Positions 1,871 through 42,135 of a stretch of 42,135 bases of DNA are shown here, piece by piece. The notes beneath the pieces were generated by a model. The model was not told the origin of the DNA and searched no databases. It saw nothing but the letters and a program-made list of their open reading frames with translations. Each line of letters opens with the position of its first letter. Positions within the stretch are counted from its first letter, which is position 1. A program made the translations under genes and the position numbers. This DNA is from a virus, in IMG/VR virus record IMGVR_UViG_3300037010_001285, positions 1-42,135 of that record. One strand, 5' to 3'.

Positions 1871-4288
1871 CTAGTTGTAAGCGATGATGTTCCAGTTAGT
1901 TCCGTCGTATTGGAGCCGCGCCCACTTGCCGATGGTGCCGGCTAAGATAGCCGTACCAGCCGCTCCGTTCATGGGGACCACGTTGGACGAAGCACTGACC
2001 ACGGTCTGAGCTACACGGGTGCTGACCATCAGCTCCCGGCCGGTCCATACAGCGCCGGCTGGAAGGGTAAGCGTCATCGTTCCGGCGTAGCCACACTGGA
2101 TCCAGTAGTCCAGCCCCACCGACGCGAGGTTTGCGTCCACCGTGTAGGTGGCCGTGCTGACGTAACTGTTGCTGGATGAGAACCGGGTCTGCCGGGTAAC
2201 GGTGGTGCAGTCCCCGACGAAGGTTTGGACCGCCAGCAGCGCCGCGGCCGTGGTGCTCTCCACCTTGGAGGTGCCCATGTAGTAGGGGTTGATGATCGTC
2301 GCCTTGGCAGTCGAGTCGAAGGAGAACGAGAGGGCCGGCCAGACAGTGCCGCCGATGACCGGGTTAACCAGGACGGGCCTGCTGTAAATCTTGAACCCGA
2401 CGCCGCAGGTGCGCGGGTCACAGCTGACAAGGCTCGGGTTGATAAATACGGTGTCAGCGCTTTGAGTGGTGACGAAGGCCGTTTGGTAGGCCGCCGAACT
2501 CATCTGCTGGTTGGTGTAGGCGGTGGGGGTGCCCGATAGGCTGTAGGTGGCCCCGGACTTATTCGCCACACCGCTAGTCAAGGCGGTGATGGTTACCGCT
2601 AGGGTGGCCCCGGCTTCGAACAGGGTGTGGATGCCGCCGGTGAGGATCCGCCCCGTCACGTCGCTGGTGAGCGTCAGAACCGCGCCGGAAGTAGTGCCGG
2701 TGAAAGTCCCGAAGGACCACAGCCCTTCGGTAGCTAGGTTGTGAATGGTGGTGTTGGGACTGGCGAAGGTGCAAGCGCCGTCCACCACCAGTTTCAGGAA
2801 GGTGCCGTTGAGCGTGGCGTCCGTCAGCGCCACACCCGATGCACAATTCACCGCTTCGAATTCGTAGATGTTGTAGCAGCCCACCGTCACGAAAGCCGTG
2901 CTGGTGCTGCCTTGGGACCACGCCCGGAAGCGGTTGCTGGCCACGTTGTTGGCGGCGCCATCAACCAGTTCCAGGGCTCGGTAAGTGTTTGTGGCCAGGA
3001 AGTCCAAGAGGCAATCCTGCACCACGAAGACATCTTGCGCCTGGGCCTTGACGGCCGCGCAGGTTGCGCCCGTCGCACCGATCACCTGGAAGTCCACCAT
3101 CTTGGTGCTGATCTGCTGGCCCGTGCTGCAGGCCACGTTCTCGGTGGAGACCGTGCCCATGACTTGGCTCATCTGGTAGACCGTGCCGATACCGCCGGTC
3201 CCGCTCAGGACTCGCTGGATCATGGCGTTGCCGAGCGGCCCTGGGGACCAGATGATCAGACCGGGGAACAGGGCGGTGGTCGGTACCGAGTCCAAGATCA
3301 TGGTTGACCCGGAGAAATGCGCCGTGAATGTGCTGGTGACGTAAGCGTTTAAGTTGATGGCCGGCAGCGTGGTGCTGCCCTGCTTGATCAGCGTGGCGCC
3401 CTTGCCTGAACCCTCAATATGCACGCCACTCAACGGGACGAAATTTGTCAGCGTGAGGGAGCAGGCGCCGAGGATCACCTTTCCTGCGGGACTGCCGTAA
3501 AAAAGAGCGTTCGGCGCCACCGCGGCCTGGGCCTGCTGGAGCGCCGCAGTCACGTCCGGATAGGTGGTCCGGTCTAAAACCTGGGTCCGCTGGGTGGGGC
3601 TCAGGTAGTCGAACAGATGGACGGTGCGCCCCAGCACTTCGCCCACGTTGGTGGCCACCGCGCCCAGGCCAGGCGCCAGGGCCGCCACCAGGGCATCACC
3701 ATAGCCGGCGGCAACGGAAGCCAGGTTGTCTGATACCTGTGCCCCGGATCCAGCGTACACCGTGGTGGGCGTGACATTCACGAAGTTCTGGCCGGTGGAG
3801 TCGAAACCCACCAGGGTGTTGGCCAAAGGGGTAAGCGTCGAGCCGACCCCGGTGCTGCTGGCCGGGAGAAGCAGCGCCCGGCTCAAGGCTTCTGTCAGCT
3901 GCTGGTTCTGCATGGTAAGCAGATCCAGCGCATTCTCGTGGCTGGCCGCCGGGAATGGACTGTTCGGGACGTAGTGGGTGAGCTGAGTCAGGGGGATGTT
4001 CCGCAGGATTGACAGCTTCTGTGTCGAAGCCAGCGCCGCCGGCAAGTGTGGGGCGGTGCCCAGGATTTGGTCCACCGATCCCTGGCCAGACAGCCCGGTG
4101 CCTGTGTCGAGGCCACCCGTGACGTTGTAGTCCGAGCCCAGGACCAAGTCGGTGGATACGCCGCTGACGAGGTCGGTCAGGATGACCCGCACGTCAGTCG
4201 GGAAGAAGAAGTAGAACGTCACAGGGAACGAGGTGGTGACCCCGTTCCCCGCATAGTCGTTCCTCAGGGTCGAATTCTGAACGGTCAT
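1871..4288 (-). CDS. Tailspike / tail fibre with beta-helix body
   Basis: An 805-aa protein. The N-terminal ~150 residues (NDYAGNGVTTSFPVTFYFF...) match the virion-attachment region seen in many podovirus tail fibres. The middle (about 265-640) is a long run of short beta-strand-like Ser/Thr/Gly-rich segments with LSGVHIEGSGKGATLI near its start, typical of right-handed beta-helix (pectate-lyase-like) spikes. The C-terminus ends in a compact beta domain (KWARLQYDGTNWNIIAYN). It recognises, and may degrade, the host surface glycan. It lies directly upstream of the lysis genes. Enzymatic activity cannot be read from the sequence. Confidence 0.85.
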   Translation of the reverse strand: MTVQNSTLRNDYAGNGVTTSFPVTFYFFFPTDVRVILTDLVSGVSTDLVLGSDYNVTGGLDTGTGLSGQGSVDQILGTAPHLPAALASTQKLSILRNIPLTQLTHYVPNSPFPAASHENALDLLTMQNQQLTEALSRALLLPASSTGVGSTLTPLANTLVGFDSTGQNFVNVTPTTVYAGSGAQVSDNLASVAAGYGDALVAALAPGLGAVATNVGEVLGRTVHLFDYLSPTQRTQVLDRTTYPDVTAALQQAQAAVAPNALFYGSPAGKVILGACSLTLTNFVPLSGVHIEGSGKGATLIKQGSTTLPAINLNAYVTSTFTAHFSGSTMILDSVPTTALFPGLIIWSPGPLGNAMIQRVLSGTGGIGTVYQMSQVMGTVSTENVACSTGQQISTKMVDFQVIGATGATCAAVKAQAQDVFVVQDCLLDFLATNTYRALELVDGAANNVASNRFRAWSQGSTSTAFVTVGCYNIYEFEAVNCASGVALTDATLNGTFLKLVVDGACTFASPNTTIHNLATEGLWSFGTFTGTTSGAVLTLTSDVTGRILTGGIHTLFEAGATLAVTITALTSGVANKSGATYSLSGTPTAYTNQQMSSAAYQTAFVTTQSADTVFINPSLVSCDPRTCGVGFKIYSRPVLVNPVIGGTVWPALSFSFDSTAKATIINPYYMGTSKVESTTAAALLAVQTFVGDCTTVTRQTRFSSSNSYVSTATYTVDANLASVGLDYWIQCGYAGTMTLTLPAGAVWTGRELMVSTRVAQTVVSASSNVVPMNGAAGTAILAGTIGKWARLQYDGTNWNIIAYN

Positions 4289-4367
4289 GATGTTTCTCCA
4301 GTCCGATCAGGCTTGTCCCCTGCGGGGGGCCCCGTTGATTCGATTATGACGACCTGGTGCGTATTTC

Positions 4368-7010
4368 TCAACGCTCCTGGTAAGCCTTGCTCAAGTCCGG
4401 GGCTGACTGCGGCGACGTAGTCCCAGGCTCCCACCAGTAGCTGGCCCCATGGGATTCCATCCGCCGGCGCTGCTTATCAGACGAGCCCGGCGCCAGCTGG
4501 TCCTGCAGTTGGTCGTAAACCAGCCGGTTGAAGGCCGCCTTGGCGTACCAGATGTTGGCGAAGGGGACCGCATTCTGCCGGACGATGCGCAGGGCCGCCA
4601 GGGGATAATTGTGTTTCGAGTCACCTTCAGCCATGGCATCCTCGCGGGCCTGGCTAAGTTCCTTGAGGACGTTGAAGCCGGCGCTAATGCCAGGGCCGGC
4701 GAGGATCTCGGCACCACTGCCAGCCTTGGTCTTGCCGTTGGCAAACAGGTCCCCGTACAGCCCCAGGCCACCCCCCGAAGCCAGCGCCTCCATCCAGAAC
4801 TTCTTACCCTCGTCGGTGGCGATGTTCATTTCCCTGGGGTTCTGCCCGTTTATCAGCGCCTTCAGTTCCACCGCCAGCGCCCCGGTGAGGGTGCTATAAC
4901 CAACGAACCGGGCCGCGTAGGACGTTTTGGAGCCCCACCCCTGCAGATCCTTCATGGCGTCGAAGTGGGCGCGAAAGATGCCCAAAGGGACGCTCTTGAA
5001 CTGGATGATGAAGCGCTTCAGTTCCCCCATTACCGTACCCGCATCCTTGGCGCTTTCCACCCCCATAGCCATGCGGTCCTCCATTGAGGACATGGACGCA
5101 CCGCGGGCTCCGAACTGCATTTGCTGGGAAGTGACCTCCATCAACTTCTCCATGGCCTCGTCCTTCATACGGGCTCGCTCTTCGGACAGGACGGAGTCGT
5201 GCTTGGACTGAAAGGCATCCCGGATCTCCTGCACCCGGGCGGCATCAGGCTTGTCACCCAGGCGTTCGAGCTGGGCATTCCGCTTGGCGATCTCCTTCTG
5301 GAAAATCTCGCTGCGGGCCGCCACCCGCTGCTCCACCAGGGGATCCAGCTTGGCATTTGGGATATCCCGGATGGATTGCGGAGTCAGCAAGGTTTCGTTG
5401 CCCCGGCCCTTGTCTACTTCGGCCAGTTTCCAGGTAGACCAATGGTCCTCGGTGATGCCCCCCTTCTGCAGGAACCGGGCCTCGCCGTCGGCGGACGCCA
5501 GAGTGTCATGCTTCCGAGTGAATTCCCCCAGCATGTCCATGACGGTCCGGCCCATACCGGTGCGCAGACCACGATCAAAGGCATTCAGCCCCATGAGCTT
5601 ATGGGTGGTCTCGTTCAGCCAAGTGCCCCACCCGTTTTTGAATTCATCCCCCGCCATCCGGTTGCTGGCGTGCTGGAAGCCCTCCATCCACACTCCCATC
5701 CGGTGCAGGAAAGCTTGCTTCTCGGGCCCCGCGGCCCAGCCGTCGATGGTGTTGCGGAATATACGCATGGCTGGGAGCCCGCTGTGCTCGGCTGCCATCT
5801 TCATGGCAGCTAGGTCCGGCAGCGCGCCCACCAGGGAACCGAGCTGCGTGGACCCGATCAGGCCGCGGGCCTGGACTGCGGCGTTGGCTACGGCCTCGTT
5901 GCCTGGCCGCTCGGGGCGGGCCATAGCGTCGAACAGCCGCTGCACCTTATTGGTAAGCGAGCGGACGCCCTCCCCGCCCCCGGCGTTCAGGTCGTTTTCG
6001 AAAGCTCTGGCCAGGGCCTGGGTCACGTTCTGGTCTGCGTTCCGGCCGAAGGTCTCGGCCATAGCGATATCCTTGGCCATGCCCCGGACGTGGGACGAAA
6101 CCAGCTCGTAGATATTGGCGGAACGACCGTACTTGGACATGGCCTGGGACCAGGAATCAGCGTCCTTGTAGAACAGCTGCCGCGGCGCGTTCTTGTTCCG
6201 GCCCACCATGGTGCTGCCGCCCAGGCCGCCACCTTCAGCCCGCTTGTTGGCGCCGTCGGTAGCGATCGACCGGTAAGACTCCCCCAGCATCCGGCGCAGC
6301 TGGTCGTCGTTCATGTGGCTGCCATCAGCGTTCAGGTAATTATTCCGGTCCACCCACTGCAGGTGGTCCTCCACCCATACGGCCTTGCCGGCGCCGGCTA
6401 CCTTAGACGGCTCTTGGGGTTGGGGCGTGCGGTAGTCCTCCCGGGCGTTGAGGGGAATTCCCGCGCGCTGGAGCCGGGCTGCCAGGTTGTCCAGCATCCC
6501 GTGCAGGCTATCCGCCGCAGTCTTGGCCTCAGGGCTGGATGACTCCCCGAACAAGGCCCTGGCGATGCCCCGCTGCTGGGCCGGGTCTAGAAACAGCCCC
6601 AGGAACTTGCCCCTGGCCGCTTCGTGGATACCCTCCAGGGTGGAGAAAGCGCTGGCTGAGATAGCTTCCGTCTTCGGTTCCAGGGCGTTTATCATGTGGC
6701 GCAGGGCCTGCACCTGCCCATTCTTGCCAGGCTTGACGCTGTCCAGCTCGGCGCGCAGCGCCGCCTTGCGCCCGGCCTCCACCACCGTGGCCTCATGGGC
6801 GCGGACCACGTCCGCCAGCATCTTCTCCTTGGCGAGCTTGGCGGCTTCGGTCATGCGTTCATGCAGGGACATGCCCAGGAACTTAGACCGGTCTGCGGCG
6901 GCTAGGTCGCGTAGGGAGCCATGCACCCGCTCCTCGATCCCGTCCAGCTCGGCCTGGGTCAGCTGGCGGCCGGCCGCTGAATTGATCGCCTGTGCGCATT
7001 CGGGTTTCAT
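4368..7010 (-). CDS. Large internal virion / DNA-ejection protein
   Basis: An 880-aa protein, mostly helical and charged, with long amphipathic stretches (for example residues about 540-620, rich in Glu, Lys, Arg and Gln) and a more hydrophobic Gly/Ala region near 690-780. No catalytic motif is recognised. Size, position between the transglycosylase-bearing protein and the tailspike, and composition match the largest ejection proteins of T7/BcepC6B-like podoviruses, which leave the head and form a conduit across the envelope. It is coupled by ATGA overlap to the 490-aa protein upstream. Function is inferred from context. Confidence 0.75.
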   Translation of the reverse strand: MKPECAQAINSAAGRQLTQAELDGIEERVHGSLRDLAAADRSKFLGMSLHERMTEAAKLAKEKMLADVVRAHEATVVEAGRKAALRAELDSVKPGKNGQVQALRHMINALEPKTEAISASAFSTLEGIHEAARGKFLGLFLDPAQQRGIARALFGESSSPEAKTAADSLHGMLDNLAARLQRAGIPLNAREDYRTPQPQEPSKVAGAGKAVWVEDHLQWVDRNNYLNADGSHMNDDQLRRMLGESYRSIATDGANKRAEGGGLGGSTMVGRNKNAPRQLFYKDADSWSQAMSKYGRSANIYELVSSHVRGMAKDIAMAETFGRNADQNVTQALARAFENDLNAGGGEGVRSLTNKVQRLFDAMARPERPGNEAVANAAVQARGLIGSTQLGSLVGALPDLAAMKMAAEHSGLPAMRIFRNTIDGWAAGPEKQAFLHRMGVWMEGFQHASNRMAGDEFKNGWGTWLNETTHKLMGLNAFDRGLRTGMGRTVMDMLGEFTRKHDTLASADGEARFLQKGGITEDHWSTWKLAEVDKGRGNETLLTPQSIRDIPNAKLDPLVEQRVAARSEIFQKEIAKRNAQLERLGDKPDAARVQEIRDAFQSKHDSVLSEERARMKDEAMEKLMEVTSQQMQFGARGASMSSMEDRMAMGVESAKDAGTVMGELKRFIIQFKSVPLGIFRAHFDAMKDLQGWGSKTSYAARFVGYSTLTGALAVELKALINGQNPREMNIATDEGKKFWMEALASGGGLGLYGDLFANGKTKAGSGAEILAGPGISAGFNVLKELSQAREDAMAEGDSKHNYPLAALRIVRQNAVPFANIWYAKAAFNRLVYDQLQDQLAPGSSDKQRRRMESHGASYWWEPGTTSPQSAPDLSKAYQER

Positions 7011-14692: not shown

Positions 14693-15256
14693 TCAATACC
14701 TCACCAGCCACAGGTCGTCATCCGGGGCGTCCTCGGCCATCTGCTCGAAGGCATTCACCCGCGCGGCTTCCTGCACAGTCTGGTCATATTCCCTGGAAAG
14801 AACCTGCTTCTTGCTGGTGGAGTTGGTGATCGCTTCGCACAGGTCGATGGCCATGCTGATGCTGACCAGGTCGTAGAACGTAGGATCCCACTGGGTCACG
14901 TCGGTGACGTCTGAGACATACCGCAAATTCAGAACCGAGCTTGTGGATGACAGAATCTTGCGCCCCTCCACCACCCAATCCAAATTCGAATCGTTCGGCA
15001 GTAGAACCCGGATGCAATCGATGGGGAGCGAAAACTGGTAGGTGACGCCGAAGGCGGGGGCGTCGGTATCCGGGGCGAGAACCGAACGCTTGACGGAGAA
15101 GTTCCACTGATGCTTGCGCAGCTCAGACCTCCGGTTGCTGTCGTAAGCGATGGCGCACTGCCGGGCTTCCCGGGTATTGTCGGTGATGGCGTTGATGGAG
15201 GCCGCCCCCAGACGCTGGAGGCAGGAGTTGCAACAATCCGTTTGAGACTGGGCCAT
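14693..15256 (-). CDS. Tail tubular protein A (T7 gp11-like adaptor)
   Basis: A 187-aa protein with the family pattern CCNSCLQRLGAASINAITD near the N-terminus, REARQCAIAYDSNRRSELRKHQWNF (name its core as RSELRKHQWNF, about 42-52), a central beta region and a C-terminal helix. It bridges portal and nozzle. It starts one base after the stop of the repeat protein gene (TGAAATG) and lies directly before the nozzle gene. Confidence 0.85.
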   Translation of the reverse strand: MAQSQTDCCNSCLQRLGAASINAITDNTREARQCAIAYDSNRRSELRKHQWNFSVKRSVLAPDTDAPAFGVTYQFSLPIDCIRVLLPNDSNLDWVVEGRKILSSTSSVLNLRYVSDVTDVTQWDPTFYDLVSISMAIDLCEAITNSTSKKQVLSREYDQTVQEAARVNAFEQMAEDAPDDDLWLVRY

Positions 15257-15257
15257 T

Positions 15258-16538
15258 TCAACTCCTCAGCAGTAGCGTGCCCATGTTGCACATCATGCCC
15301 ACCGTTGTGATATTAGCATCAACCGGGCTGCCCCCGTCGGTCCAAAGCAGGACGATGTCGGAGCCTTCGGTGAACACCAGAACGGAACCGACAGCAACCA
15401 CCACGGTCCCAGCCACAATGTCGGAGCCTTCGGTGAACGCCAGAATGGCACCGGCAGCAACCACCACGGTCCCAGCCACAATGTCGGCGCCCTCAGTGAA
15501 GGCAAGGGCGCTGCCCGCCGGCGCGGTCGCGGCCAGGGCCAGAACATCGGCGCCCTCGGTGAAGGCCAAGACGACACCTGCCGGCGCAGTCGCGGCCAGG
15601 GCCAGAACATCGGCGCCCTCAGAAAACACCAAGTTGGAGCCCCGGGCAGCCAAAGGCGACACAGTGACCTGCAGGCTGAACGCATCCAGACCCTCAGTGA
15701 ACACCAGGACATTTCCCGCCGGCGCGGTCGCGGCCAGGGCCAGGACGTCGGCGCCCTCGGTGAGCGCCAGCGTCGTGTTGAGCGCTACCGAGGCGGCCAG
15801 GGCCAGGACGTCGGCGCCCTCGGTGAAGGCTAGCGCAGCATTCAGACCGACTGCCGCAGCCAATGATGGGACGTCAGGCGCCTCAGTGAAAGCCAGAGTG
15901 GCATTCGACGTTGTGGCCGCTGGCTTAAATGCAGCTGTAACAATGGTTTCGGTAGTGCTAGTGGACCCAGTTGTCCCGTTCGATCCGTAAGCCCCAGCCG
16001 CACCCGCAACCAGGTCCATACTGGCAGCGTATTGGCTGGTGTAGTTGCTATTTCGGATAGTGAATCCGGAAGTGCTGGTAATCGTCCCCCCGGAATCATG
16101 GTTATTCCAGAAGGAAAAAAGGTAATCCCCACCCTGGGTAGTAGTGATCGACGGACCAGTATGGGAGGTTACCCGGGTTGATTCCGACACCCCTCCAGCA
16201 ACGTCCAGCACACTCGCCAGGGTAGCCAAACACCCCGTCGCAACATGCACATACGTAGCCGGACTGTTGCTGGTACTGTCGGTAACGGTAATCGTCAGGG
16301 TGGCGTTGGATTTCGCAACCGCATAGTAGATGTATCCAGACCACGCTGCGTTATTGCTTGAATCGACGTAGGTTGCCCTGTTATAAGTATTTCCGTCAGA
16401 ATCGGCAACGGTTATCCCGGTATTTACAGCGGCTACAGACCCGTACCCAACGACGATTAAGTCGCCCACCGATACTGCTACCGACGAAACAACCTTACTC
16501 GTATTCGATGAGTAAGAATTCTTATAAGCGGCGGCCAT
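15258..16538 (-). CDS. Virion-associated protein with nine ~21-residue tandem repeats
   Basis: A 426-aa protein. Residues 1-205 form a Ser/Thr/Gly-rich beta domain with the look of an Ig/lectin-type sandwich (GDLIVVGYGSVAAVNTGITV). Residues about 210-405 are nine repeats of about 21 aa centred on FTEGADVLALAATAPAG. Such FTEG/ADxLxA repeats are met in phage and prophage decoration or tail proteins, but I cannot assign a function. It lies between the head genes and the tail adaptor. The first part has unusually AT-rich codons (16000-16500) compared with the repeats and the neighbours, suggesting a chimeric origin. Confidence 0.75.
   Translation of the reverse strand: MAAAYKNSYSSNTSKVVSSVAVSVGDLIVVGYGSVAAVNTGITVADSDGNTYNRATYVDSSNNAAWSGYIYYAVAKSNATLTITVTDSTSNSPATYVHVATGCLATLASVLDVAGGVSESTRVTSHTGPSITTTQGGDYLFSFWNNHDSGGTITSTSGFTIRNSNYTSQYAASMDLVAGAAGAYGSNGTTGSTSTTETIVTAAFKPAATTSNATLAFTEAPDVPSLAAAVGLNAALAFTEGADVLALAASVALNTTLALTEGADVLALAATAPAGNVLVFTEGLDAFSLQVTVSPLAARGSNLVFSEGADVLALAATAPAGVVLAFTEGADVLALAATAPAGSALAFTEGADIVAGTVVVAAGAILAFTEGSDIVAGTVVVAVGSVLVFTEGSDIVLLWTDGGSPVDANITTVGMMCNMGTLLLRS
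15324..15911. repeat. Coding tandem repeats (nine ~63-bp units)
   Basis: The minus-strand protein carries nine copies of an FTEG(A/S)D-centred unit of about 21 residues. At DNA level some are almost identical, for example the stretches around 15356-15420 and 15419-15483 and the pair around 15520-15610, so they are recent duplications. Two units diverge (FTEAPDVPSL at the start and FTEGLDAFSLQV in the middle). Confidence 0.85.
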
Positions 16539-19543: not shown

Positions 19544-19756
19544 TTACTCGAAGATGGGAGGAACCTTGTCCGCTTTGGTCTTGCCCGGGGTCTTAGGTGA
19601 GGGCTTCACGCCCTTGTCCTCCTCCCCGTTGATGGTGAAATTGTAGAACCACGTTGCGATTTCAGCAATTTTATTTCGGTTGGCGCCGTGGCCTTCCCTC
19701 TGAGCCTGGGGAATCGCCAGTTCCACACACCTCAGGCGCATCTCCTCGGCGGTCAT
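19544..19756 (-). CDS. Small hypothetical protein between scaffold and capsid
   Basis: A 70-aa hydrophilic protein (MTAEEMRLRCVELA...KADKVPPIFE) with a short helical N-terminus and a Lys/Pro-rich tail. It overlaps the scaffold stop by 4 bp (ATGA). The MRLRCVELAI...ANRNKIAEIATWFYNF pattern is found in small phage proteins near capsid genes, where its role is not established. Confidence 0.6.
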   Translation of the reverse strand: MTAEEMRLRCVELAIPQAQREGHGANRNKIAEIATWFYNFTINGEEDKGVKPSPKTPGKTKADKVPPIFE

Positions 19757-22966: not shown

Positions 22967-23014
22967 ATCTTTGGCACTTCGTCAACGGTGTGAGCTTATC
23001 ACAACAACAAACCA

Positions 23015-24586: not shown

Positions 24587-24603
24587 TTTGGGATTGTCGC
24601 AAC
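24587..24603. promoter_or_regulatory. Degenerate repressor-type operator before terL
   Basis: On the minus strand this reads GTTGCG-ACAAT-CCCAAA. The first half matches the operator consensus exactly and the second 4 of 6 positions. It lies just outside the terL ribosome-binding site and next to an A/T block that could hold a -10 element. Binding is inference. Confidence 0.4.
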
Positions 24604-24678
24604 AAAATTAAAATATTTTTAAAAATTAAAAGTGCGGCTGCTCCAACGCCCGGGGGAAACTCGCGCGGCTTCGGTCGG

Positions 24679-24905: not shown

Positions 24906-25373
24906 TCAGCTATAGATATCAGGTGTGGGATCAGTCGCCTGGTCGGCTAGGGTAGGCAGAACCTGGGCCTCGATGATGGGTTGCATAGCGGCACATGCGA
25001 CTCTAGCACGCGCCTCGCTCAGTGCATCCGTGATACTGATGGACTGCTGAATGGACAACTCAACACGGTCGCCATACACCCGGGAATTCTGTTTGGACGA
25101 GCGCCATTTGCGGGTATCCACCATATTCTTAGCCCGCATAGGATCGATAAGTGGATCGTCTGCAATCTTTACGATCTCATCAGCAACCAAGTCGGTCCGA
25201 TCTTCCTGTGCCTGCGCATATAGGCCCTGCAGCTCTCGCACTCTTGCTTTCGTTTTGTAAAACATTGTGGCGGATAAACCGACGATCTGTAAAGCGTCCT
25301 GGATCAATTCACCACTTGCAACCCGCTCGATTACCGCTTTCACCTTACTAATCGTCAGCTCATCGGTTCCCAT
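24906..25373 (-). CDS. terS: Terminase small subunit
   Basis: A 155-aa protein with an N-terminal helix-turn-helix (about 8-45, KVKAVIERVASGELIQDALQIVGLS; core ELIQDALQIVGLS) and the Sf6/P22-type small terminase pattern DTRKWRSSKQNSRVYGDRVELS near residues 88-108. It recognises the packaging site and recruits TerL. Start ATG at 25373 with GAGGTG. First gene of the late block, divergent from the early rightward genes. It is separated from terL by 331 bp, more than usual. Confidence 0.85.
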   Translation of the reverse strand: MGTDELTISKVKAVIERVASGELIQDALQIVGLSATMFYKTKARVRELQGLYAQAQEDRTDLVADEIVKIADDPLIDPMRAKNMVDTRKWRSSKQNSRVYGDRVELSIQQSISITDALSEARARVACAAMQPIIEAQVLPTLADQATDPTPDIYS

Positions 25374-25429: not shown

Positions 25430-25438
25430 CAAATTAAT

Positions 25439-25455
25439 GTTGCATCCTACGCAAC
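25439..25455. promoter_or_regulatory. Repressor-type operator O1
   Basis: GTTGCATCCTACGCAAC; with flanking AT on each side the arms are ATGTTGC and GCAACAT, perfectly complementary over 7 bp with a 7-bp spacer. It shares the GTTGC-N7-GCAAC layout with the two copies between repressor and Cro. Confidence 0.65.
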
Positions 25456-25499
25456 ATCGCCCTAACCTATACCTACACCAAGACCCCACGGAGACCCAC

Positions 25500-25649
25500 A
25501 TGGCCACTCGTTTCATTCTCTTCTGTGCCCTCGGCGCCAGCATCGCGCTATCCATTAGTTGCCAACCGCGCAAGTCAGAGTTACAGCAGCTGGCCGAGAC
25601 CGAACCGGCCGCAACCCAGGCCGACCAGGCCGAACTAGAGCAGAGGTGA
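25500..25649 (+). CDS. Small putative lipoprotein, first early gene
   Basis: A 49-aa protein: Met-Ala-Thr-Arg, a hydrophobic stretch (FILFCALGASIALSIS), then Cys21 and a polar tail. SISC resembles a lipobox, though Ser at -3 is atypical. Ribosome-binding site CGGAGA. As first gene behind the operator and CRP-like site it would be made at once on infection or in derepressed cells. Small phage lipoproteins (Cor, Llp) can block receptors, but there is no sequence evidence for that here. Confidence 0.6.
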   Translation: MATRFILFCALGASIALSISCQPRKSELQQLAETEPAATQADQAELEQR

Positions 25650-25653
25650 TCCC

Positions 25654-25929
25654 ATGCTGACCTATGAACAAATCCAAGCTATCGCCGCCATCCTTGGCTG
25701 GACATGCGACGAAGTTATCTCAGCAATCGGGGAATTGAACGCGGGCTTCATGCTCATCGACGTCGAATACATCGACGACACGGAGATCCTGGCTGATTTG
25801 GAAACTGACGAATGCGGTTTCTACTCCCGGCTGTCCGCTCCCGGTTACCTGGATTGCACCAACTGGTTCGGACCATTCCAGACCGAGGTCGAAGCCGTCG
25901 CGGATATTCTCTCCAATTACGCAAACTGA
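25654..25929 (+). CDS. Acidic hypothetical early protein
   Basis: A 91-aa acidic protein (MLTYEQIQAIAAILGWTCDEVISAIGELNAG; core LGWTCDEVISAI). It has many Asp/Glu and a net negative charge, as in several phage proteins that mimic DNA or bind host factors. Ribosome-binding site AGAGGTGA. Starts 4 bp after the lipoprotein-like gene. No recognised family. Confidence 0.65.
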   Translation: MLTYEQIQAIAAILGWTCDEVISAIGELNAGFMLIDVEYIDDTEILADLETDECGFYSRLSAPGYLDCTNWFGPFQTEVEAVADILSNYAN

Positions 25930-25941
25930 AAGTAAAATGAC

Positions 25942-26343
25942 ATGACCAGCGAATTCAAATGCAGCATCTGTGGACTGATCAAGGCTGAACAGTCCGAAGG
26001 TGGGACTGGCTATGCAGTCTTAGCGGACGAATCCAAAGTCTGTTACGAATGCTGCGCCATTCTTGACCGGGACAGCATGATCAAAACCGGACGTGCAACC
26101 TTATATCTGACCATCGCGGATTATGGGAAACGGGGCTGGTTAGGCGAGCGATACATTTCAGCCACCATCAGCAATTGGCCGGGCACTCTCAAATTCCACT
26201 CCAATCTCGTCAAGTACGGGCGCCATAACATGGCTGACCGTCGCTATGACGTTTGGTTTTATGGTCCCGACGGTAAAACTTGGCATGGCGTTCGATACGG
26301 AGACAACACCCAAATCTGCCACTGCAAACGAACCAAAGACTGA
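25942..26343 (+). CDS. Zinc-binding early protein
   Basis: A 133-aa protein. An N-terminal zinc-finger-like region has CSIC (residues 7-10) and CYECC (about 34-38), and a C-terminal pair of Cys (CHC, about 127-129) may add a ligand. The middle holds a beta-rich domain with KFHSNLVKYGRHNMADRRYDVWFYGPDG, resembling small phage proteins of unknown role. Third gene in the first early operon, 12 bp after its neighbour. Function unknown. Confidence 0.65.
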   Translation: MTSEFKCSICGLIKAEQSEGGTGYAVLADESKVCYECCAILDRDSMIKTGRATLYLTIADYGKRGWLGERYISATISNWPGTLKFHSNLVKYGRHNMADRRYDVWFYGPDGKTWHGVRYGDNTQICHCKRTKD

Positions 26344-26345
26344 CA

Positions 26346-26361
26346 AAAGGAGTCAACTATG
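26346..26361 (+). repeat. Repeated ribosome-binding linker (copy 1)
   Basis: AAAGGAGTCAACTATG, spanning ribosome-binding site to start codon. It is identical to 26639-26654 before a different gene, which suggests shared translation signals or past duplication. Confidence 0.85.
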
Positions 26362-26586
26362 ACCACTTACAACGGCCACAAAAACTGGGACTACTGGAAT
26401 GTGTCCCTTTGGATTAACAACGACAAAGTCATTTACAACCTGGCACTCCAAGCCATGAAGTGCCACAAGACAGCGACCGAGGCGGCTGAGTGGTTCCTCA
26501 ACGCTGTCGGGGAAACCAATACCCCCGACGGAGCCCGCTACACCATGCCTAATGTTCGGGAAGCGATCAAAGACATTCTTAGCTAA
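26359..26586 (+). CDS. Conserved phage protein (NGHKNWDYWNVSLWINND family)
   Basis: A 75-aa protein with the highly conserved N-terminus TYNGHKNWDYWNVSLWINND, a signature of a widespread phage/plasmid family of unknown function (DUF7249-like). The rest is helical (KTATEAAEWFLNAVG). Good ribosome-binding site (AAAGGAG). Usually expressed early. No enzymatic motif. Confidence 0.75.
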   Translation: MTTYNGHKNWDYWNVSLWINNDKVIYNLALQAMKCHKTATEAAEWFLNAVGETNTPDGARYTMPNVREAIKDILS

Positions 26587-26604
26587 CCCCGCGCACCCCC
26601 ATTC

Positions 26605-26622
26605 GGCCCGAGAGGGCCTTTT
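26605..26622 (+). terminator. Intrinsic terminator
   Basis: GGCCC-GAGA-GGGCC followed by TTTT. An outer stem is also possible, CACCCC upstream with GGGGTG downstream (about 26594-26628). It lies in the 65-bp gap between two early genes and may attenuate the first early operon. Confidence 0.65.
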
Positions 26623-26638
26623 GGGGTGTAACTCAACC

Positions 26639-26654
26639 AAAGGAGTCAACTATG
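26639..26654 (+). repeat. Repeated ribosome-binding linker (copy 2)
   Basis: Second exact copy of AAAGGAGTCAACTATG (see 26346-26361), placing the same translation start signal in front of the 124-aa gene. Confidence 0.85.
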
Positions 26655-27026
26655 CGCAAAATCACGCGCGACATCGCCCGTGCCATCCGCGCCGGCAAAT
26701 CCCTCACAGCAGGGAACACCGCCTACAGCCACGAACACGGAACCGTCACACTCCATGGGAATGTGATTTTCTACCGTGAGGGTGATGTGTTCAGAATCAG
26801 CATGGCCGTCTGCAAACGCTGGCCAACCCCCACCACCTGTGACCGTGTTAACAAACTAATCTGTGAACTGGGAACCGCGCGCCCAACCATCGGCCATAAG
26901 AATTTTAGCTTAGTCGTCTACGAAACTTTCGGCGGAAAACCTATCTCGGCGGATTTATTAACCTCGGATCCCGTCGCGTTTTCTGCCCCCGACCCCCATC
27001 AATCCCGGAACCTAGAATTATCGTAG
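26652..27026 (+). CDS. Conserved early phage protein of unknown function
   Basis: A 124-aa basic protein: DIARAIRAGKSLTAGNTAY, LHGNVIFYREGDVFRISMAVCKRWPTPTTCDRVNKL (core WPTPTTCDRVNKL). It belongs to a phage/prophage family with the pattern LHGxxIxxR...TPTTRxRxN, of unknown role. Its end overlaps an iteron-like repeat (27004-27029). The residues after about 105 look low in complexity. Confidence 0.65.
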   Translation: MRKITRDIARAIRAGKSLTAGNTAYSHEHGTVTLHGNVIFYREGDVFRISMAVCKRWPTPTTCDRVNKLICELGTARPTIGHKNFSLVVYETFGGKPISADLLTSDPVAFSAPDPHQSRNLELS

Positions 27027-27290
27027 AATCAAAATCCCTATACAACATATACCTTACTCTACTATTCTATTTATTCTATAGAAAGATAGAGTTAGTAATA
27101 GGATTTAGCCTAGCGACTCTCCCCGCTCTGTGGAGACTAGCCCCCCAAAAATCTTTCCCAGCCGCGCCCGTTTTCCCCGGGGGATTTTCCCTGCAAATCG
27201 CGGAAATGATGGAACACGTTGAAAAATAAGGGAAACGTCCAAATTTTGATCCTGGAACCTCCTAGAACACGTAGAATTGCGTCAGGTAAT
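27004..27290. other. AT-rich repeat region, candidate replication origin or control region
   Basis: A stretch with no convincing gene. A GGAACCT...AGAA...GTAGAAT word occurs at 27004-27029 and 27251-27277, and a related GGAACACGTTGAA at 27211-27223. Between them lie a very A/T-rich block (27027-27110) with imperfect inverted repeats (CTCTACTATTCTAT against ATAGAAAGATAGAG) and a hairpin around TCTCC...GGAGA (27117-27141). Iterons plus an A/T-rich unwinding element resemble an origin; this is inference. Confidence 0.4.
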
Positions 27291-27295
27291 CCCAA

Positions 27296-27382
27296 ATGAA
27301 CCGACATCGACTCATCTGCATCCTCATTTACCTGTCCATCGCTCTCGGGATCGCCCAGGGCATTCCGGACCTTTTCCGCTAG
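27296..27382 (+). CDS. 28-aa putative membrane microprotein
   Basis: The ORF encodes MNRHRLICILIYLSIALGIA followed by QGIPDLFR. It is a positively charged N-end and one hydrophobic helix, ending in a short polar tail. Its ribosome-binding site is weak (CAGGT). The stop codon overlaps the AGGAG that serves the next small ORF, suggesting a pair. Function unknown. Confidence 0.45.
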   Translation: MNRHRLICILIYLSIALGIAQGIPDLFR

Positions 27383-27392
27383 GAGTTACGCC

Positions 27393-27551
27393 GTGCCCCA
27401 ATCCCCAGTTCAGATAGGCCGGATCCAATTCCGCCAGGCTGGCCCGATCTACCGCGCCTATCGTCTAGCTGGTGTGCTCCACTACTGGAACCCCTTGGTG
27501 GAGCGCATGATCCCGGTCCACGATCCCTGCGCCACGATGACGTGGATGTAA
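27393..27551 (+). CDS. 52-aa hypothetical protein
   Basis: A GTG-started ORF with AGGAG 7 nt upstream: (V)PQSPVQIGRIQFRQAGPIYRA... ending ATMTWM. It is basic and aromatic-rich, with codon use like the surrounding genes. It ends 30 bp before the convergent repressor gene. Not recognised. Confidence 0.45.
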   Translation: MPQSPVQIGRIQFRQAGPIYRAYRLAGVLHYWNPLVERMIPVHDPCATMTWM

Positions 27552-27581
27552 CCCATCGCAAAGCTTTTACGCTAAGTCTGC

Positions 27582-28187
27582 TTATTGACGGACCCAAAGA
27601 ACGGGTGTGGCTGACACCAGGCGCCCCGGTTCCTTGATCGAGCCATCGAAGGACACCAGCGACCATTCCCCCGCCTTGTAGCCCCGGCCAAGCCATCGCA
27701 AACGGCACCCAGCTTCCCCCCGCATCCGCACCACGCAGAGTCGGCCCACTGCTTCGGCCAGAACGCCAGGCCGGTCGTCCGCCTCATCCACCAGGAAATA
27801 GCACCCATCCGACAGTCCGCCCTGCCCGTGATAGGCATTAGCCTTGCTAGGAATGGACTGGGGCACGTCCTCGATCTTCCCCGGCCCAAGCAATCCCTCA
27901 GGCCCATGCCCCAAACCTTGGCCGTCAAACCAGCCGGCGACGGCCACGCCATCGCAAACGGAATGCAGCACCTCGATACCAGCGCGCTGCATCACCTCCT
28001 CAACCGGGACCAGGAAATGCCGGGCCAGCTCGGCCGCTTCCTGCGCCCGGATACCCTGCTTCCCATTGAACATACGCGAAACGGCTGAGTAGTTGAGCCC
28101 AAGCAGCTCACCTAGTCGGCGCGTGGTCAGGTGGTTGTCCTTCGCCTTGCGGTGGAACCACTCACTGTCAATTGCGGTAGCGTTCAT
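27582..28187 (-). CDS. CI-type repressor (XRE HTH with S24-like C-domain)
   Basis: A 201-aa protein. The N-terminal HTH (about 18-62) reads TTRRLGELLGLNYSAVSRMFNGKQGIRAQEAAELARH (core LGLNYSAVSRMFNGK). The C-terminal half (about 110-200) resembles the beta domain of LexA/CI-type regulators (GCYFLVDEADDRP, RLCVVRMRGEA, ending ATPVLWVRQ). I see no clear Ser/Lys catalytic pair or Ala-Gly cleavage site, so RecA-stimulated self-cleavage is doubtful. Start set at the ATG at 28187 (GGGGGGTGATT before it), not the GTG at 28193. It faces the Cro-like gene across two operators. Confidence 0.8.
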   Translation of the reverse strand: MNATAIDSEWFHRKAKDNHLTTRRLGELLGLNYSAVSRMFNGKQGIRAQEAAELARHFLVPVEEVMQRAGIEVLHSVCDGVAVAGWFDGQGLGHGPEGLLGPGKIEDVPQSIPSKANAYHGQGGLSDGCYFLVDEADDRPGVLAEAVGRLCVVRMRGEAGCRLRWLGRGYKAGEWSLVSFDGSIKEPGRLVSATPVLWVRQ

Positions 28188-28266
28188 AATCACCCCCCAG
28201 GGTATGGTTTAGAATTGTATTTAACCGGCGTCTGTTGGTCTGCCGGCAGTGATAAAGGTAGGTATT

Positions 28267-28283
28267 GTTGCGGAGCGCGCAAC
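28267..28283. promoter_or_regulatory. Repressor-type operator O2
   Basis: GTTGCGGAGCGCGCAAC. Arms GTTGCG and CGCAAC are perfectly complementary with a 5-bp spacer. Between repressor and Cro. Confidence 0.7.
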
Positions 28284-28333
28284 TTAAGTTTAGCCCGTTT
28301 AGATAAAATTTTAAGTTTTTGGCTTGCAATCTT

Positions 28334-28350
28334 GTTGCGAAGGACGCAAC
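28334..28350. promoter_or_regulatory. Repressor-type operator O3
   Basis: GTTGCGAAGGACGCAAC; with flanking T and A the arms are 7 bp. It lies 9 bp before the Cro start codon and includes GAAGGA, the only ribosome-binding-like sequence for that gene. Confidence 0.7.
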
Positions 28351-28358
28351 ATTGCCCC

Positions 28359-28697
28359 ATGAGAGAACCAACGCCACCCCGAACGCATTCCGGACCTGCC
28401 CGCAACATTAGCGAAGCCGTACGCCCAACCTACAACCAGGCAGCCAAGATCATCGCTAAGTTTGGCGGTGAGGCAGCTATGGCCAAGTCCGCAGGCATAA
28501 ACCGAAGCACCCTGTATCGGTGGCAGTACCACCGTCCCCTTGGGACGGACGGCATCGTCCCTAATATCGCGGTGGAACGCGTGACCCGGGCCGCCCGCAT
28601 TTGTGGGATCGTGCTCACTCCTCAAGATTGGATCCCCGAGCGTATCAATTACGAGCCCGTTTGCCCGGATCCCCGAACCGGAGACATCTATGAGTAG
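28359..28697 (+). CDS. Cro-type transcriptional regulator
   Basis: A 112-aa protein with an HTH at about 27-75: AAKIIAKFGGEAAMAKSAGINRSTLYRWQYHRPLGTDG (core AGINRSTLYRWQ). This is the pattern of phage Cro/YdaS-like regulators that act opposite a CI repressor. The C-terminal GIVLTPQDWIPERIN is a common tail in this family. Start at 28359; the frame is open far upstream through the repressor gene but is not coding there. Its stop overlaps the resolvase start by 8 bp. Confidence 0.75.
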   Translation: MREPTPPRTHSGPARNISEAVRPTYNQAAKIIAKFGGEAAMAKSAGINRSTLYRWQYHRPLGTDGIVPNIAVERVTRAARICGIVLTPQDWIPERINYEPVCPDPRTGDIYE

Positions 28698-29178
28698 CAC
28701 AACCCTCCTTGGCATTGACCCGGGATTAGGTGGCGCCCTAGCCATTTACGACCCAGTCCATCCATCCGCAGCTGAGGTGTACGACATCCCGGTCCTAGAT
28801 GGGCAGATCGACATCCCCATGTTGGTGCAGACCATCGCAACGCTTTGCCACACTTACCCAGGTTTCACCGCCGTGATCGAGAACGTCCACAGTCTGCCGC
28901 GCCAGGCCGGCGCCTTCAATTTTGGCCTAGGCGCCGGGATCCTGCGGGGCGTGTTGGTGAGTCACAGCATCGACTTCAGCCTAGTGGCGCCCAGTGTGTG
29001 GAAGCCGCGGATGGGCCTGCAGCGATGGGCTGATGAGACCCCGGAAGCGAATAAGTCCCGGGCCCGGATGCTGGCCAGTCAGCTGTTCCCCCACCTCGAT
29101 CCCCGGCTCAAACGCGTCAAGGATGATGGCCGGGCCGAAGCCCTGCTGATGGCGCTGTACTGGTCCTCCCGTAGATGA
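28690..29178 (+). CDS. RuvC-like Holliday junction resolvase
   Basis: A 162-aa RNase H-fold nuclease: GIDPGLGGALA (Asp10), VIENVHS (Glu64), and DDGRAEALLMALY (Asp145/146, Glu150). These acidic residues match RuvC-type resolvases of phages and poxviruses. It would resolve branched replication and recombination intermediates before packaging. Translationally coupled to the Cro-like gene (8-bp overlap), so under the same switch. Confidence 0.8.
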   Translation: MSSTTLLGIDPGLGGALAIYDPVHPSAAEVYDIPVLDGQIDIPMLVQTIATLCHTYPGFTAVIENVHSLPRQAGAFNFGLGAGILRGVLVSHSIDFSLVAPSVWKPRMGLQRWADETPEANKSRARMLASQLFPHLDPRLKRVKDDGRAEALLMALYWSSRR

Positions 29179-29197
29179 ATTCCCATCCTTTCCCCAC

Positions 29198-29395
29198 ATG
29201 GCATCTCGTCATGCATCGCATCGTTCACCCGCGAGTCAAACTCTGTCCAAACTGGTCGGGGGTTGTGCCAACCGCAAGCGGGGACACGCCGGTCAAGGCC
29301 GGCGGCAGGCGATGGGGATGGACTTTGGCTCTGCGCTGCGCCCTGAAGTGCGTTTCAACCACCACGCCGAGCATCCCGCCCTGGCCACAGTCTGA
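29198..29395 (+). CDS. Possible 65-aa hypothetical protein
   Basis: The ORF MASRHASHRSPASQ...ALATV has no clear ribosome-binding site, but the codon choice in its second half (from about residue 40, GMDFGSALRPEVRFNHHAEHP) is typical of the neighbouring genes. It occupies most of the 258-bp gap between the resolvase and the next gene. It could be a remnant. Confidence 0.4.
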   Translation: MASRHASHRSPASQTLSKLVGGCANRKRGHAGQGRRQAMGMDFGSALRPEVRFNHHAEHPALATV

Positions 29396-29436
29396 TCTTG
29401 TCCGGGATCTCCACCACCTGTCCAGAAAGGTGAACC

Positions 29437-29655
29437 ATGACGAAATACCTCACCGTGGTCCTACGTGTGGCTGACAACGCCGAGAACAAACTGGTGTTGG
29501 ACCAGATGGACAGGGTCAATGGAGCCACCCTTGTCGCTGCCTCCTGGTCCCATGTGCTGGATGAGCGGAACGGCTACCGGGAGGCGCTGGAGCGGATTTC
29601 CAACCTGCGCGATTCGGAGGAATCCAGAATCGCCCTGATCGCCCTTCGTCTGTGA
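29437..29655 (+). CDS. Small hypothetical protein
   Basis: A 72-aa protein ([21 protein letters not shown]...IALRL) with a beta-strand start and a helical, Arg/Glu-rich C-terminus. Ribosome-binding site AAAGG. It is the first gene after a TGTCCA-type linker (29419-29424) and opens the short-gene cassette. Unknown function. Confidence 0.6.
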
Positions 29656-29696
29656 CTATCCACTCGCCGGAACCTCAGCACTCATCTGGATCCAAA

Positions 29697-30338
29697 ATGA
29701 AACGCTACACCCCTGATGATCTTAAGGCCACGCTGGATGCCCACAAGATGTGGATCCTGGACCAGAAAGGCGGGAGCCGGGCCGACCTGCGCCGGGCCGA
29801 CCTGCGCCGGGCCGACCTGCGCCGGGCCGACCTGCGCGGGGCCGACCTGCGCCGGGCCGACCTGAGCTGGGCCGACCTGCGCCGGGCCGACCTGAGCTGG
29901 GCCGACCTGCTCGGGGCCGACCTGCTCGGGGCCGACCTGCGCGGGGCCGACCTGCGCGGGGCCGACCTGCGCGGGGCCGACCTGCTCGGGGCCGACCTGC
30001 GCGGGGCCGACCTGCGCGGGGCCGACCTGCGCGGGGCCGACCTGGGCGGGGCCGACCTGAAAATTCATTCCCTGGAGGTGTTCGCTGATCTCTATTCCTA
30101 CGTATGCTACGCGTTTGTGACGGAGGACGGCGTCCCCTGGGTCCGCATGGGCTGCCTCTGGCACACCCTCGCGGAGTGGGACCAGATCGGGATTCGGGCC
30201 AGCAATGTCAACGAGTTTCCCGACGATGGCTCCGAGAAATGCGAGCGGAGAGTCCGGGCGTTTGAATTCGCCCGCGCTGCCGCTCTGGCCCAGGTGGAGA
30301 AATTCCGCGCTGAGAACCCCACCCAGGCCACGACCTGA
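29697..30338 (+). CDS. Pentapeptide-repeat protein
   Basis: A 213-aa protein. Residues 1-27 form an N-cap with [20 protein letters not shown] (helical). Residues about 29-121 are 19 consecutive A-D-L-x-x pentapeptides, about five turns of a right-handed quadrilateral beta-helix. The C-terminal ~90 residues are a separate conserved phage domain ([20 protein letters not shown] and [19 protein letters not shown]). Some pentapeptide proteins mimic DNA and protect or inhibit gyrase (Qnr, MfpA), but this repeat is positively charged (R-rich), unlike these mimics. Start set at the ATG at 29697. Role unknown. Confidence 0.8.
29781..30059. repeat. 19-unit perfect-phase 15-bp tandem repeat
   Basis: GCCGACCTG recurs every 15 bp from 29781 to 30051 without a single indel, with only a few changes in the last two codons (R-R, R-G, S-W, L-G). 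The low divergence implies recent expansion or gene-conversion-like homogenisation. Confidence 0.95.
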
Positions 30339-33320: not shown

Positions 33321-34807
33321 CCGATCTAGAGACCCTTCGACCCTTCCAGGCAGTGGGGGCCCGGTACCTGGCGGACCATCCACAGGCGCTGCTGGCCGAC
33401 GATATGGGCCTAGGCAAAAGTGCGCAAGCTATCCGGGCCTGTGACCTGGTGGGCGTCCGGGACATCCTGGTGCTGTGTCCGGGCGCGGTCCGGGTGAACT
33501 GGGAAAGAGAATTCGAGCGGTTCAGCCCGATGGACCGGCCATGCACAGTGCTGCTCAGCAGTGACGATGAACTGCCAGCCGGTGGGGTAGTGGTTTGCAG
33601 CTACGATCTGCTGAGCCCGCCAAGTAGCGCCAAGGCGGTGAAGAAAGCCAAGAAGGCTCCGGATGATTCTGCAGCTCAGCAGCGCGCGAAGCAGGCTAAG
33701 CGGCTACAGGCGAAGCGGAAAGCTTTTCTTCGGGCCATCAAGTACCATCGCTGGGATGTGCTGATCCTTGATGAAGCCCACTACCTCAAGGACCCGGGCG
33801 CCGGCCGAACCACAGCTGTGTTCGGGCGCAATGTAACGGACCTAGGAATCGCCGGCGGCGCCAAGAGGATCTGGCGCCTGACGGGAACGCCGGCACCCAA
33901 CGATGCCAGCGAACTGTGGATTCACCTCCGCAGCGCCGGGATCACCAGTTTGTCTCACTGGGACTTTATTTTTCATTTCTGCGTAGGGTTTGAAGGTGAC
34001 TTTAAATTTAAGATCGTTGGCCACAAAAACACTGAGGAGTTGAAAGGGCTGCTCGCACAGTTCATGCTCCGTCGTAAAAAGGAGGACGTTATGCAGGATC
34101 TGCCCCCCATCCGCTACGAGACCGTGACCGTCGAGCGGTCCGCGGTGGAGTTGGACCCCACATTCTACGAGCAGATTCAGGCGCACGGGGGTGAGCAGAA
34201 CCTGATTACCAGCCTGAAAGTGGCGGATCAGACGCTGCGTCAGGCTCTGGAGGTTGTGAGCGCTAACATGAACCACGGCTCCCCGAACGGGGACCGGTTG
34301 AAGCTGCTGGAGTCCATGGGCCCGGGGCTGATGACGCTGCGCCGCTACATCGGCATGGCTAAACTACCGGCCATCCTGGACATCATCGAGGACGAGCTGT
34401 CGTCCGGCCAGCTGGAGAAAGTGGTTTTGTTCGGGGTTCACCAATGTGTCATCGAAGGCGCCAGGAAGGCCCTGGCCAAGTACGGCGCCGTAACCCTTTA
34501 TGGGCTGACACCTCCGCAGAAGCGTCAGCGCAATATTGACAAGTTCATGAAGGACAAGCACTGCCGGGTTTTTATCGGCAACATCCAGGCGGCCGGTGTC
34601 GGCATCACATTAACCTCGGCCCATGAAGTGGTTTTCCTTGAGCAAGAGTGGGTTCCGAGCAGCAACGCCCAGGCGGCCATGCGTTGCCATCGCATCGGCC
34701 AGACTGAGCCCGTCCGCGTCCGGATTTTCAGCCTGCACAAGAGTGTGGATGAACAGGTGCAGGCGACGCTGCTGCGCAAAACCAAAGAACTTTTGAAAAT
34801 TTTTTAA
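33317..34807 (+). CDS. SNF2/DEAH-type helicase
   Basis: A 496-aa superfamily 2 helicase: GTG start at 33317 overlapping the glycosyltransferase stop. Walker A DDMGLGKSAQA (Lys34), Walker B DEAH (152-155), LTGTPAPN (motif III), and in the second domain FIGNIQAAGVGITLTSAH (motif V) and QAAMRCHRIGQ (motif VI, Arg finger). It is a compact SNF2 core without an added DNA-binding domain, as in phage replication modules. Likely remodels forks or displaces proteins during replication or recombination. Confidence 0.85.
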   Translation: MTDLETLRPFQAVGARYLADHPQALLADDMGLGKSAQAIRACDLVGVRDILVLCPGAVRVNWEREFERFSPMDRPCTVLLSSDDELPAGGVVVCSYDLLSPPSSAKAVKKAKKAPDDSAAQQRAKQAKRLQAKRKAFLRAIKYHRWDVLILDEAHYLKDPGAGRTTAVFGRNVTDLGIAGGAKRIWRLTGTPAPNDASELWIHLRSAGITSLSHWDFIFHFCVGFEGDFKFKIVGHKNTEELKGLLAQFMLRRKKEDVMQDLPPIRYETVTVERSAVELDPTFYEQIQAHGGEQNLITSLKVADQTLRQALEVVSANMNHGSPNGDRLKLLESMGPGLMTLRRYIGMAKLPAILDIIEDELSSGQLEKVVLFGVHQCVIEGARKALAKYGAVTLYGLTPPQKRQRNIDKFMKDKHCRVFIGNIQAAGVGITLTSAHEVVFLEQEWVPSSNAQAAMRCHRIGQTEPVRVRIFSLHKSVDEQVQATLLRKTKELLKIF

Positions 34808-34814
34808 AATTCTT

Positions 34815-34831
34815 GTTGTGAACGTCGCAAC
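34815..34831. promoter_or_regulatory. Repressor-type operator O4
   Basis: GTTGTGAACGTCGCAAC, one mismatch from the GTTGCG-N5-CGCAAC consensus. It lies in the 61-bp gap between the helicase and the next gene, one of the few gaps in the replication module, suggesting a regulated internal promoter. Confidence 0.6.
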
Positions 34832-41920: not shown

Positions 41921-42104
41921 TCTGCTTTCGTACGCGGACTTCCGGACGGGGCTGACCTTCAGGGACGTTAGGCAGATGCTGTGGAGTTGGTCCACCGATA
42001 ACCGGGACTGGCCCAACGTGACTCGCCATACCGTGCTGGGCCGTTGGCGCCAGCTGAAGCTGCAGATGTACGCCCAATATCTGGACGAGTCCATCCCCTT
42101 CTAA
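41904..42104 (+). CDS. Small hypothetical protein at the right end
   Basis: A 66-aa protein, MCSPDDLLSYADFRTGLTF..., ending QYLDESIPF. The Trp/Arg-rich centre (LWSWSTDNRDWPNVTRHTVLGRWRQLK; core SWSTDNRDWPN) is a pattern found in phage proteins of unknown function. It overlaps the HTH gene by 17 bp and its 3' part is duplicated at 1-152. Not assigned. Confidence 0.65.
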   Translation: MCSPDDLLSYADFRTGLTFRDVRQMLWSWSTDNRDWPNVTRHTVLGRWRQLKLQMYAQYLDESIPF

Positions 42105-42132
42105 GCCGCAACGAAAATGAAGGGGGGGGGGG
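41953..42132. repeat. Right copy of terminal repeat
   Basis: Matches 1-175 apart from T in place of C (position 128 of the left copy, synonymous) and 11 G instead of 6 at the end. See the left copy. Confidence 0.9.
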
Positions 42133-42135
42133 TGA

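Follow-up and report, generated by a model that had tools for sequence, protein, structure and literature searches.

A virus record of 42,135 bases from IMG/VR (IMGVR_UViG_3300037010_001285; the whole of this stretch is called the window) contains 17-bp palindromes of the form GTTGCG-N5-CGCAAC, which raise the question of which protein reads them and how much of the genome is under its control. An initial inspection of the letters, here called the sequence-only reading, had reported three of these palindromes and proposed that they link a repressor-Cro switch with an early promoter. The coordinates and spacing were exact: the two sites between the genes P0001 and P0002, 67 bp apart, were perfect dyads, and the third had one mismatch. 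The genes and sites concerned are the following, with scores in bits for a family motif described below.

27582-28187, minus strand: CI-type repressor P0001, with a lambda-like helix-turn-helix (HTH; recognition helix YSAVSRMF) and a C-terminal domain like those of lambda, 186, and LexA
28359-28697, plus strand: Cro-like protein P0002, with weak matches to P22_Cro and YdaS
24906-25373, minus strand: terminase small subunit gene terS (Sf6-like)
28267..28283: switch operator 1, perfect dyad GTTGCGGAGCGCGCAAC, upstream of the repressor gene; 11.9 bits
28334..28350: switch operator 2, perfect dyad GTTGCGAAGGACGCAAC, just before the Cro-like start codon; 14.5 bits
25439..25455: operator in the divergent region between terS and the early genes, one mismatch, GTTGCATCCTACGCAAC; 10.5 bits

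Our analysis suggested that the CI-type repressor encoded at 27582-28187 very probably uses the palindromes as 17-bp dyad operators, through which it would silence many promoters throughout the genome. The earlier proposal of a CI-type operator was supported by an independent motif from relatives, a rigid 5-bp spacer, co-occurrence with CI, and overlap with promoters. The sites in the switch and at the early promoter stand; however, a link limited to these was too narrow a view, since the sites are spread genome-wide and extend to the late genes.

Scans with the repressor or the Cro-like protein as single sequences did not find close relatives. A terL search gave 39 loci of relatives, and an alignment of five repressors retrieved the best 80 of 88 IMG/VR loci plus one prophage, from Nitrosovibrio sp. 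Nv4. The 64 best-ranked of these 81 repressor loci were selected, and 34, amounting to 327 kb, were left after the removal of near-duplicates. The regions upstream of these 34 non-redundant repressors, with the window excluded, were analyzed by expectation-maximization under a model that is palindromic by design, and the best 19-mer was TGTTGcGAaatTCgCAACA. When up to one mismatch was allowed, the same relatives contained 44 matches with a spacer of 5, and from 0 to 4 matches with each of the eleven other spacers between 0 and 11. Moreover, 59 other arrangements of the same six arm letters gave no more than 5 matches. A site was found within 250 bp upstream in 32 of 33 loci, versus 3.8 expected. 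Because those regions had served to train the matrix, this enrichment is circular; they are removed in the masked count given below.

The dispersal of the motif was measured in 17 records (the window and 16 relatives; 622,326 bases), with a threshold of 12 bits or more and with 11.6% of the bases classified as noncoding by a simple codon-usage gene caller. There were 198 matches, 134 of them noncoding, versus means of 15.8 and 4.3 (maxima 42 and 15) for 60 matrices with permuted half-site columns. Once the training regions were masked, 173 matches were counted, 112 of them noncoding, and the permuted means were 15.4 and 4.0 (maxima 40 and 14). In addition, 38 of the 53 sites within one mismatch fell in the noncoding fraction. 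The window alone (2,998 noncoding bases by a hand-made gene list) had 6 motif matches, and its 4 noncoding ones were reached by none of the 60 permutations. Five window sites were within one mismatch, and four of these were noncoding (25439, 28267, 28334, and 34815); the mean in 100 dinucleotide-preserving shuffles was 0.21, and the largest value was 2, so that none reached 5. With the 17-bp form of the family motif, the nine best window sites were 34815, 4356, 28334, 24587, 28267, and 25439, along with 15304, 19653, and 39338 in coding DNA. The three sites noted at the outset are among them, and the sites at 34815, 4356, 24587, 19653, and 15304 are additions to the original set. The further sites in the window are:

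34815..34831: operator GTTGTGAACGTCGCAAC, after the helicase gene and before the next gene
4356..4372, minus strand: operator on a late-gene promoter, TTGAGA-17-CATAAT, that reads into the tail-fibre-like gene 1871-4288
24587..24603: operator-like site with two mismatches, 12.8 bits, between the terL start and terS, beside an AT-rich run
22989..23005: weak operator-like site, 10.1 bits, just after the terL stop
19653..19669, minus strand: site within the small gene 19544-19756; a promoter-like TTGCTG-17-TACAAT lies on the minus strand
15304..15320: candidate site of uncertain status inside a gene, 19.8 bits
3063: coding site within one mismatch, inside the tail-fibre-like gene

Some of these positions had counterparts in the relative G001, where a perfect site, GTTGCGATCGTCGCAAC, was found at 2614 in a gap with distances similar to those at 34815; a site at 14861 with TTGAGC-17-TATAAT corresponded to 4356, and a 20.8-bit site was located just after terL (30402). 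The G001 homologue of the gene 19544-19756 also holds a perfect site (26693), and this match with 19653 could be explained by coding conservation. AT-rich runs were observed directly beside three operators (24600-24640, 34785-34815, and 28295-28320) in this 62% GC genome; they are perhaps UP elements.

An unsupervised search of the noncoding DNA, genome by genome, ranked the operator palindrome first in 12 of the 17 IMG/VR records. The top motif of the other five was an A/T run (G000, G001, G002, and G012) or a repeat (G015), and a related palindrome was among the top four motifs in G000, G001, G002, and G012. Within the window, the operator palindrome ranked second behind an A/T-run motif. 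For six named phages, the search covered only the first 60 kb, and in five of them it yielded a 17-bp palindrome particular to that phage:

BcepIL02: GGTtcGAtaaTCgaACC
Parlo: GTTTgcAtaaTgcAAAC
SopranoGao: GTTGCtAtnaTaGCAAC
Pavtok: GTTgtcataatgacAAC
Itty13: gTTTnnaaattnnAAAc

The palindromes of BcepIL02, Parlo, SopranoGao, and Pavtok were present in about 9-17 dispersed copies each. In JC1, the operator-like palindrome GGTtcnataatngaACC came second and the top motif was another palindrome. The IMG/VR contigs, Burkholderia Lessievirus, Serratia phage Parlo, Klebsiella phage SopranoGao, Erwinia phage Pavtok, and the Nitrosovibrio prophage share the same predicted design, with operator letters specific to each lineage. 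Other dispersed palindromes were seen along the way: the one that outranks the operator-like palindrome in JC1 (L207-L209) is tAccGTAcngTACggTa, with about 25 sites, and, in addition to the CI operator, G033, G037, and G049 (L264-L272) carry a second one, TGGTGngaatcnCACCA, at about 23-26 sites in each genome.

The relationship between the sites and promoters was assessed after 188 noncoding sites were oriented to the nearest downstream gene. The -35 coincided with the operator's own TTGCGA in 34 of these sites (8.2 in flank shuffles and 13 in antisense), and in 24 the -35 was at -19/-18, with the operator centre on the -10 (2.8 in shuffles and 9 in antisense). The clearest case in the window was 4356. 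At 25439, the suggested overlap with a -35-like TTGCAT was confirmed, as part of a weak plus-strand promoter, TTGCAT-17-TAACCT, with a promoter score of 6.0. Because the overlap toward the next gene exceeds both shuffles and antisense, the sites, from their sequence context, fit promoter operators better than elongation blocks. The latter would be stoperators, where a repressor bound between tandem genes blocks the elongating RNA polymerase, as in mycobacteriophage L5. Sites of the L5 type are documented (PMC9283540), and 117 of 196 noncoding sites in our set were between tandem genes, some of them in late operons. However, divergent gaps were over-represented, as they held 71 of the 196 sites but made up 58 of the 519 gaps, or 22% of the bases in gaps, and the sites cannot be oriented to transcription because they are symmetric dyads. 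With the promoter overlap also far above its controls, we regard stoperators as quite unlikely.

Co-occurrence pointed to CI as the protein that would bind these promoter operators. The window and 16 terL relatives were searched over their full length, and a site within one mismatch was present in all six CI-bearing records and in none of the 11 CI-less ones; in one of the six, G012, the CI profile matched in two pieces. A CI gene with a two-piece profile match and an apparently shortened HTH lies at L039:451-966, on a 7-kb contig that still holds 5 noncoding operator matches. An exact scan of IMG/VR for TGTTGCGANNNTCGCAACA, which takes the operator alone as its query, gave 24 stretches, and a reversed pattern used as control gave 6. 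At least 3 sites were present in seven of these 24 records, and five of the seven encode a full-length CI (E below 1e-46), with an HTH-only match in another. Among the 17 records with one or two sites, a full-length CI was found in none and weak HTH matches in two, and one of the six control-pattern records showed a weak match. Two of the five CI-encoding records, G001 and G023, were already in the set of relatives.

An alternative is that the chief binder is the Cro-like protein, or some other protein of the phage or its host, and that the CI gene is only linked to the sites. In lambdoid switches, Cro and CI usually bind the same operators, and the Cro-like protein is also conserved in the relatives. 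However, G015 keeps a Cro 48% identical to that of the window, and neither a recognisable CI, nor a site within one mismatch, nor a noncoding match of at least 12 bits was detected in this record; with a slightly different background, one coding match of 12.1 bits appeared. In addition, CI is encoded in operator-rich records that were retrieved with the operator as the sole query. This alternative is, in our judgement, very unlikely.

Several results speak against the assignment of the sites to CI as genome-wide promoter operators. The CI linkage is compatible with Cro as the main binder. G003 (L273-L274) has no CI by profile, yet 4 weaker noncoding matches of at least 12 bits were found in it, which may reflect a diverged repressor or a relic. 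G028 encodes a CI with a standard helix and has 4 noncoding matches, with no clear de novo motif. The window promoter matches were mostly weak by the E. coli consensus, with the exception of 4356 and 19653. When the relatives' sites were compared with the HTH of their repressors, a check suggested in the sequence-only reading, recognition helix and operator showed a suggestive but nonsignificant covariation across the full set of 25 genomes (Mantel r 0.18, p 0.10). The correlation rose to r 0.39 (p 0.024) after G028, with its motif at noise level, was dropped, and to r 0.49 (p 0.0002) after both G028 and JC1 were dropped; it was not relied upon because significance needs these omissions. By eye, S-A-[VIL]-S helices mostly occurred with G.TG..., EYTALYRM (G002) with GTTGTCA, and the SQLS phages with other letters, and SopranoGao and G028 contradict any simple rule between helix and operator. 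Finally, the excess in the window was absent at three mismatches, with 36 sites versus 29.8 expected and 13 of 100 shuffles reaching 36, and looser matches as a group were therefore given no weight. This last result, the coding location of 3063, and a possible coding constraint on 19653 would suit an excess that is compositional or coding-driven and not regulatory. Such an origin is extremely improbable, given that the excess was reproduced by none of the controls (spacer, permuted arm, permuted matrix, and dinucleotide shuffle), and given the concentration of the near-perfect sites in noncoding DNA.

The repressor itself was analyzed by profile and structure prediction. The HTH of P0001 gave weak matches to transcriptional-repressor profiles, and the family profile matched lambda CI in PDB (E 5e-7) through an N-terminal lambda-like HTH. 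An AlphaFold2 (AF2) model built from the 34 relatives had a predicted local distance difference test (pLDDT) score of 92.6. In Foldseek, its top match was a lambda-186 hybrid repressor, followed by lambda CI and 186 CI (1lmb, 3bdn, and 7jvt among the matches). The C-terminal domain (residues 79-201) aligned to 186 CI with Z 9.3 over 98 residues and a root-mean-square deviation of 2.9 Å, and the lambda and LexA domains gave Z about 9. By predicted fold, the P0001 family is of the lambda/186-CI type. Self-cleavage in RecA-induced repressors of the lambda type uses a Ser/Lys dyad. In the C-terminal domain of the 34 relatives, no Ser or Lys was invariant or nearly so, which is compatible with a repressor that would not be induced by self-cleavage.

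With such a protein, one recognition helix of the predicted dimer would dock in each GTTGCG half-site. Two operators would serve the CI/Cro control region and one the early promoter, and others would act on internal and late promoters (4356, 34815, and probably 24587). In a lysogen, one protein could thus directly shut many promoters beyond the two of the switch, and Cro may compete with CI for the same sites. It is also conceivable, if unlikely, that a 186-CI-like oligomer bridges the dispersed dyads and folds the entire phage DNA into a single silenced nucleoprotein body; immunity would then belong to the set of sites as a whole and not to one switch.

The lambda operators are 17-bp dyads, and a lambdoid switch has three closely spaced operators per control region. 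The window resembles the lambda and 186 immunity regions in the operators that lie between its divergent CI and Cro genes, its 17-bp dyads, and its predicted CI fold, but differs in having two switch operators 67 bp apart, further sites throughout the genome, and different operator letters. In P1, the operators overlap promoters and are asymmetric. As with P1 C1, one repressor would act on many operators placed on promoters genome-wide; unlike P1 C1, the window has perfect 6+6 dyads and a repressor that is lambda/186-like in predicted fold. The operators of C1 are spread over the phage map (PMC8201110). SPbeta has a repeated intergenic element, SPBRE, in promoter regions, bound by MrpR, the master repressor of lysogeny (PMC10516654). 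MrpR, from a Bacillus prophage, adopts the fold of a tyrosine recombinase and has a motif of 15 bp, in contrast with the HTH CI and 17-bp dyads described here. In the L5 type, many repressor sites are distributed over the mycobacteriophage genome (PMC9283540), but these are asymmetric and bound by a monomeric repressor that terminates elongation, unlike the dyads on promoters in our set. The Lessievirus phages (Bcep22-like) encode a repressor homologue that shares about 30% identity with the G007 protein, and carry dispersed 17-bp palindromes; they differ in their operator, GGTtcGAtaaTCgaACC in BcepIL02, and in their genomes of about 62 kb with other gene content.

Dispersed repressor sites as such are already known in a few phages (P1, L5, and SPbeta). 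In the phages examined here, a family of lambda/186-type repressors appears to use them across a wide range of hosts' viruses. The statement that the operator was not known from described phages held in the literature searched, where broader searches gave nothing on point for this operator, but sister sites exist in described phages such as BcepIL02 and Parlo. The literature search found no mention of Bcep22, BcepIL02, and operator together, and an earlier notice in the founding Bcep22/BcepIL02 report is possible. The JC1 paper, in its accessible text, names the repressor and stable lysogens, and the terms operator, promoter, inverted repeat, and palindrome are all unmentioned in that text (PMC9144972). 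The lineage-specific operator letters might be readable as a recognition code, and the assignment to CI predicts which phages share immunity and places regulated promoters in unannotated genomes.

With regard to the gene setting, P0001 and P0002 lie among the terminase genes terS and terL and genes that encode a Holliday junction resolvase, a helicase, an exonuclease, DNA polymerase A, and a primase. Several of the longer terL-relative contigs (L014 and L016; partly L019, L029, L039, and L045) keep the order resolvase, Cro, CI, early genes, terS, and terL. The last 183 bases of the window (41953-42135) repeat its start (1-183), with a single mismatch in the first 175 bases and a run of G at the tip; because of this repeat, the window is probably a complete genome with a circular map, although no end repeat is recorded for the record. 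Tyrosine and serine integrases were absent from the window by the PF00589 and PF00239 profiles, and PF00589 was present in 13 of 16 related CI-bearing records; the window may represent a CI/Cro phage whose integrase was lost or never acquired. When the window DNA from 27000 to 30000 was compared with phages, the matches listed were pentapeptide-repeat DNA. A pentapeptide-repeat-like gene (L045:4409-4927) was also observed next to Cro, at the place that CI occupies in relatives, in a 29-kb record without CI.

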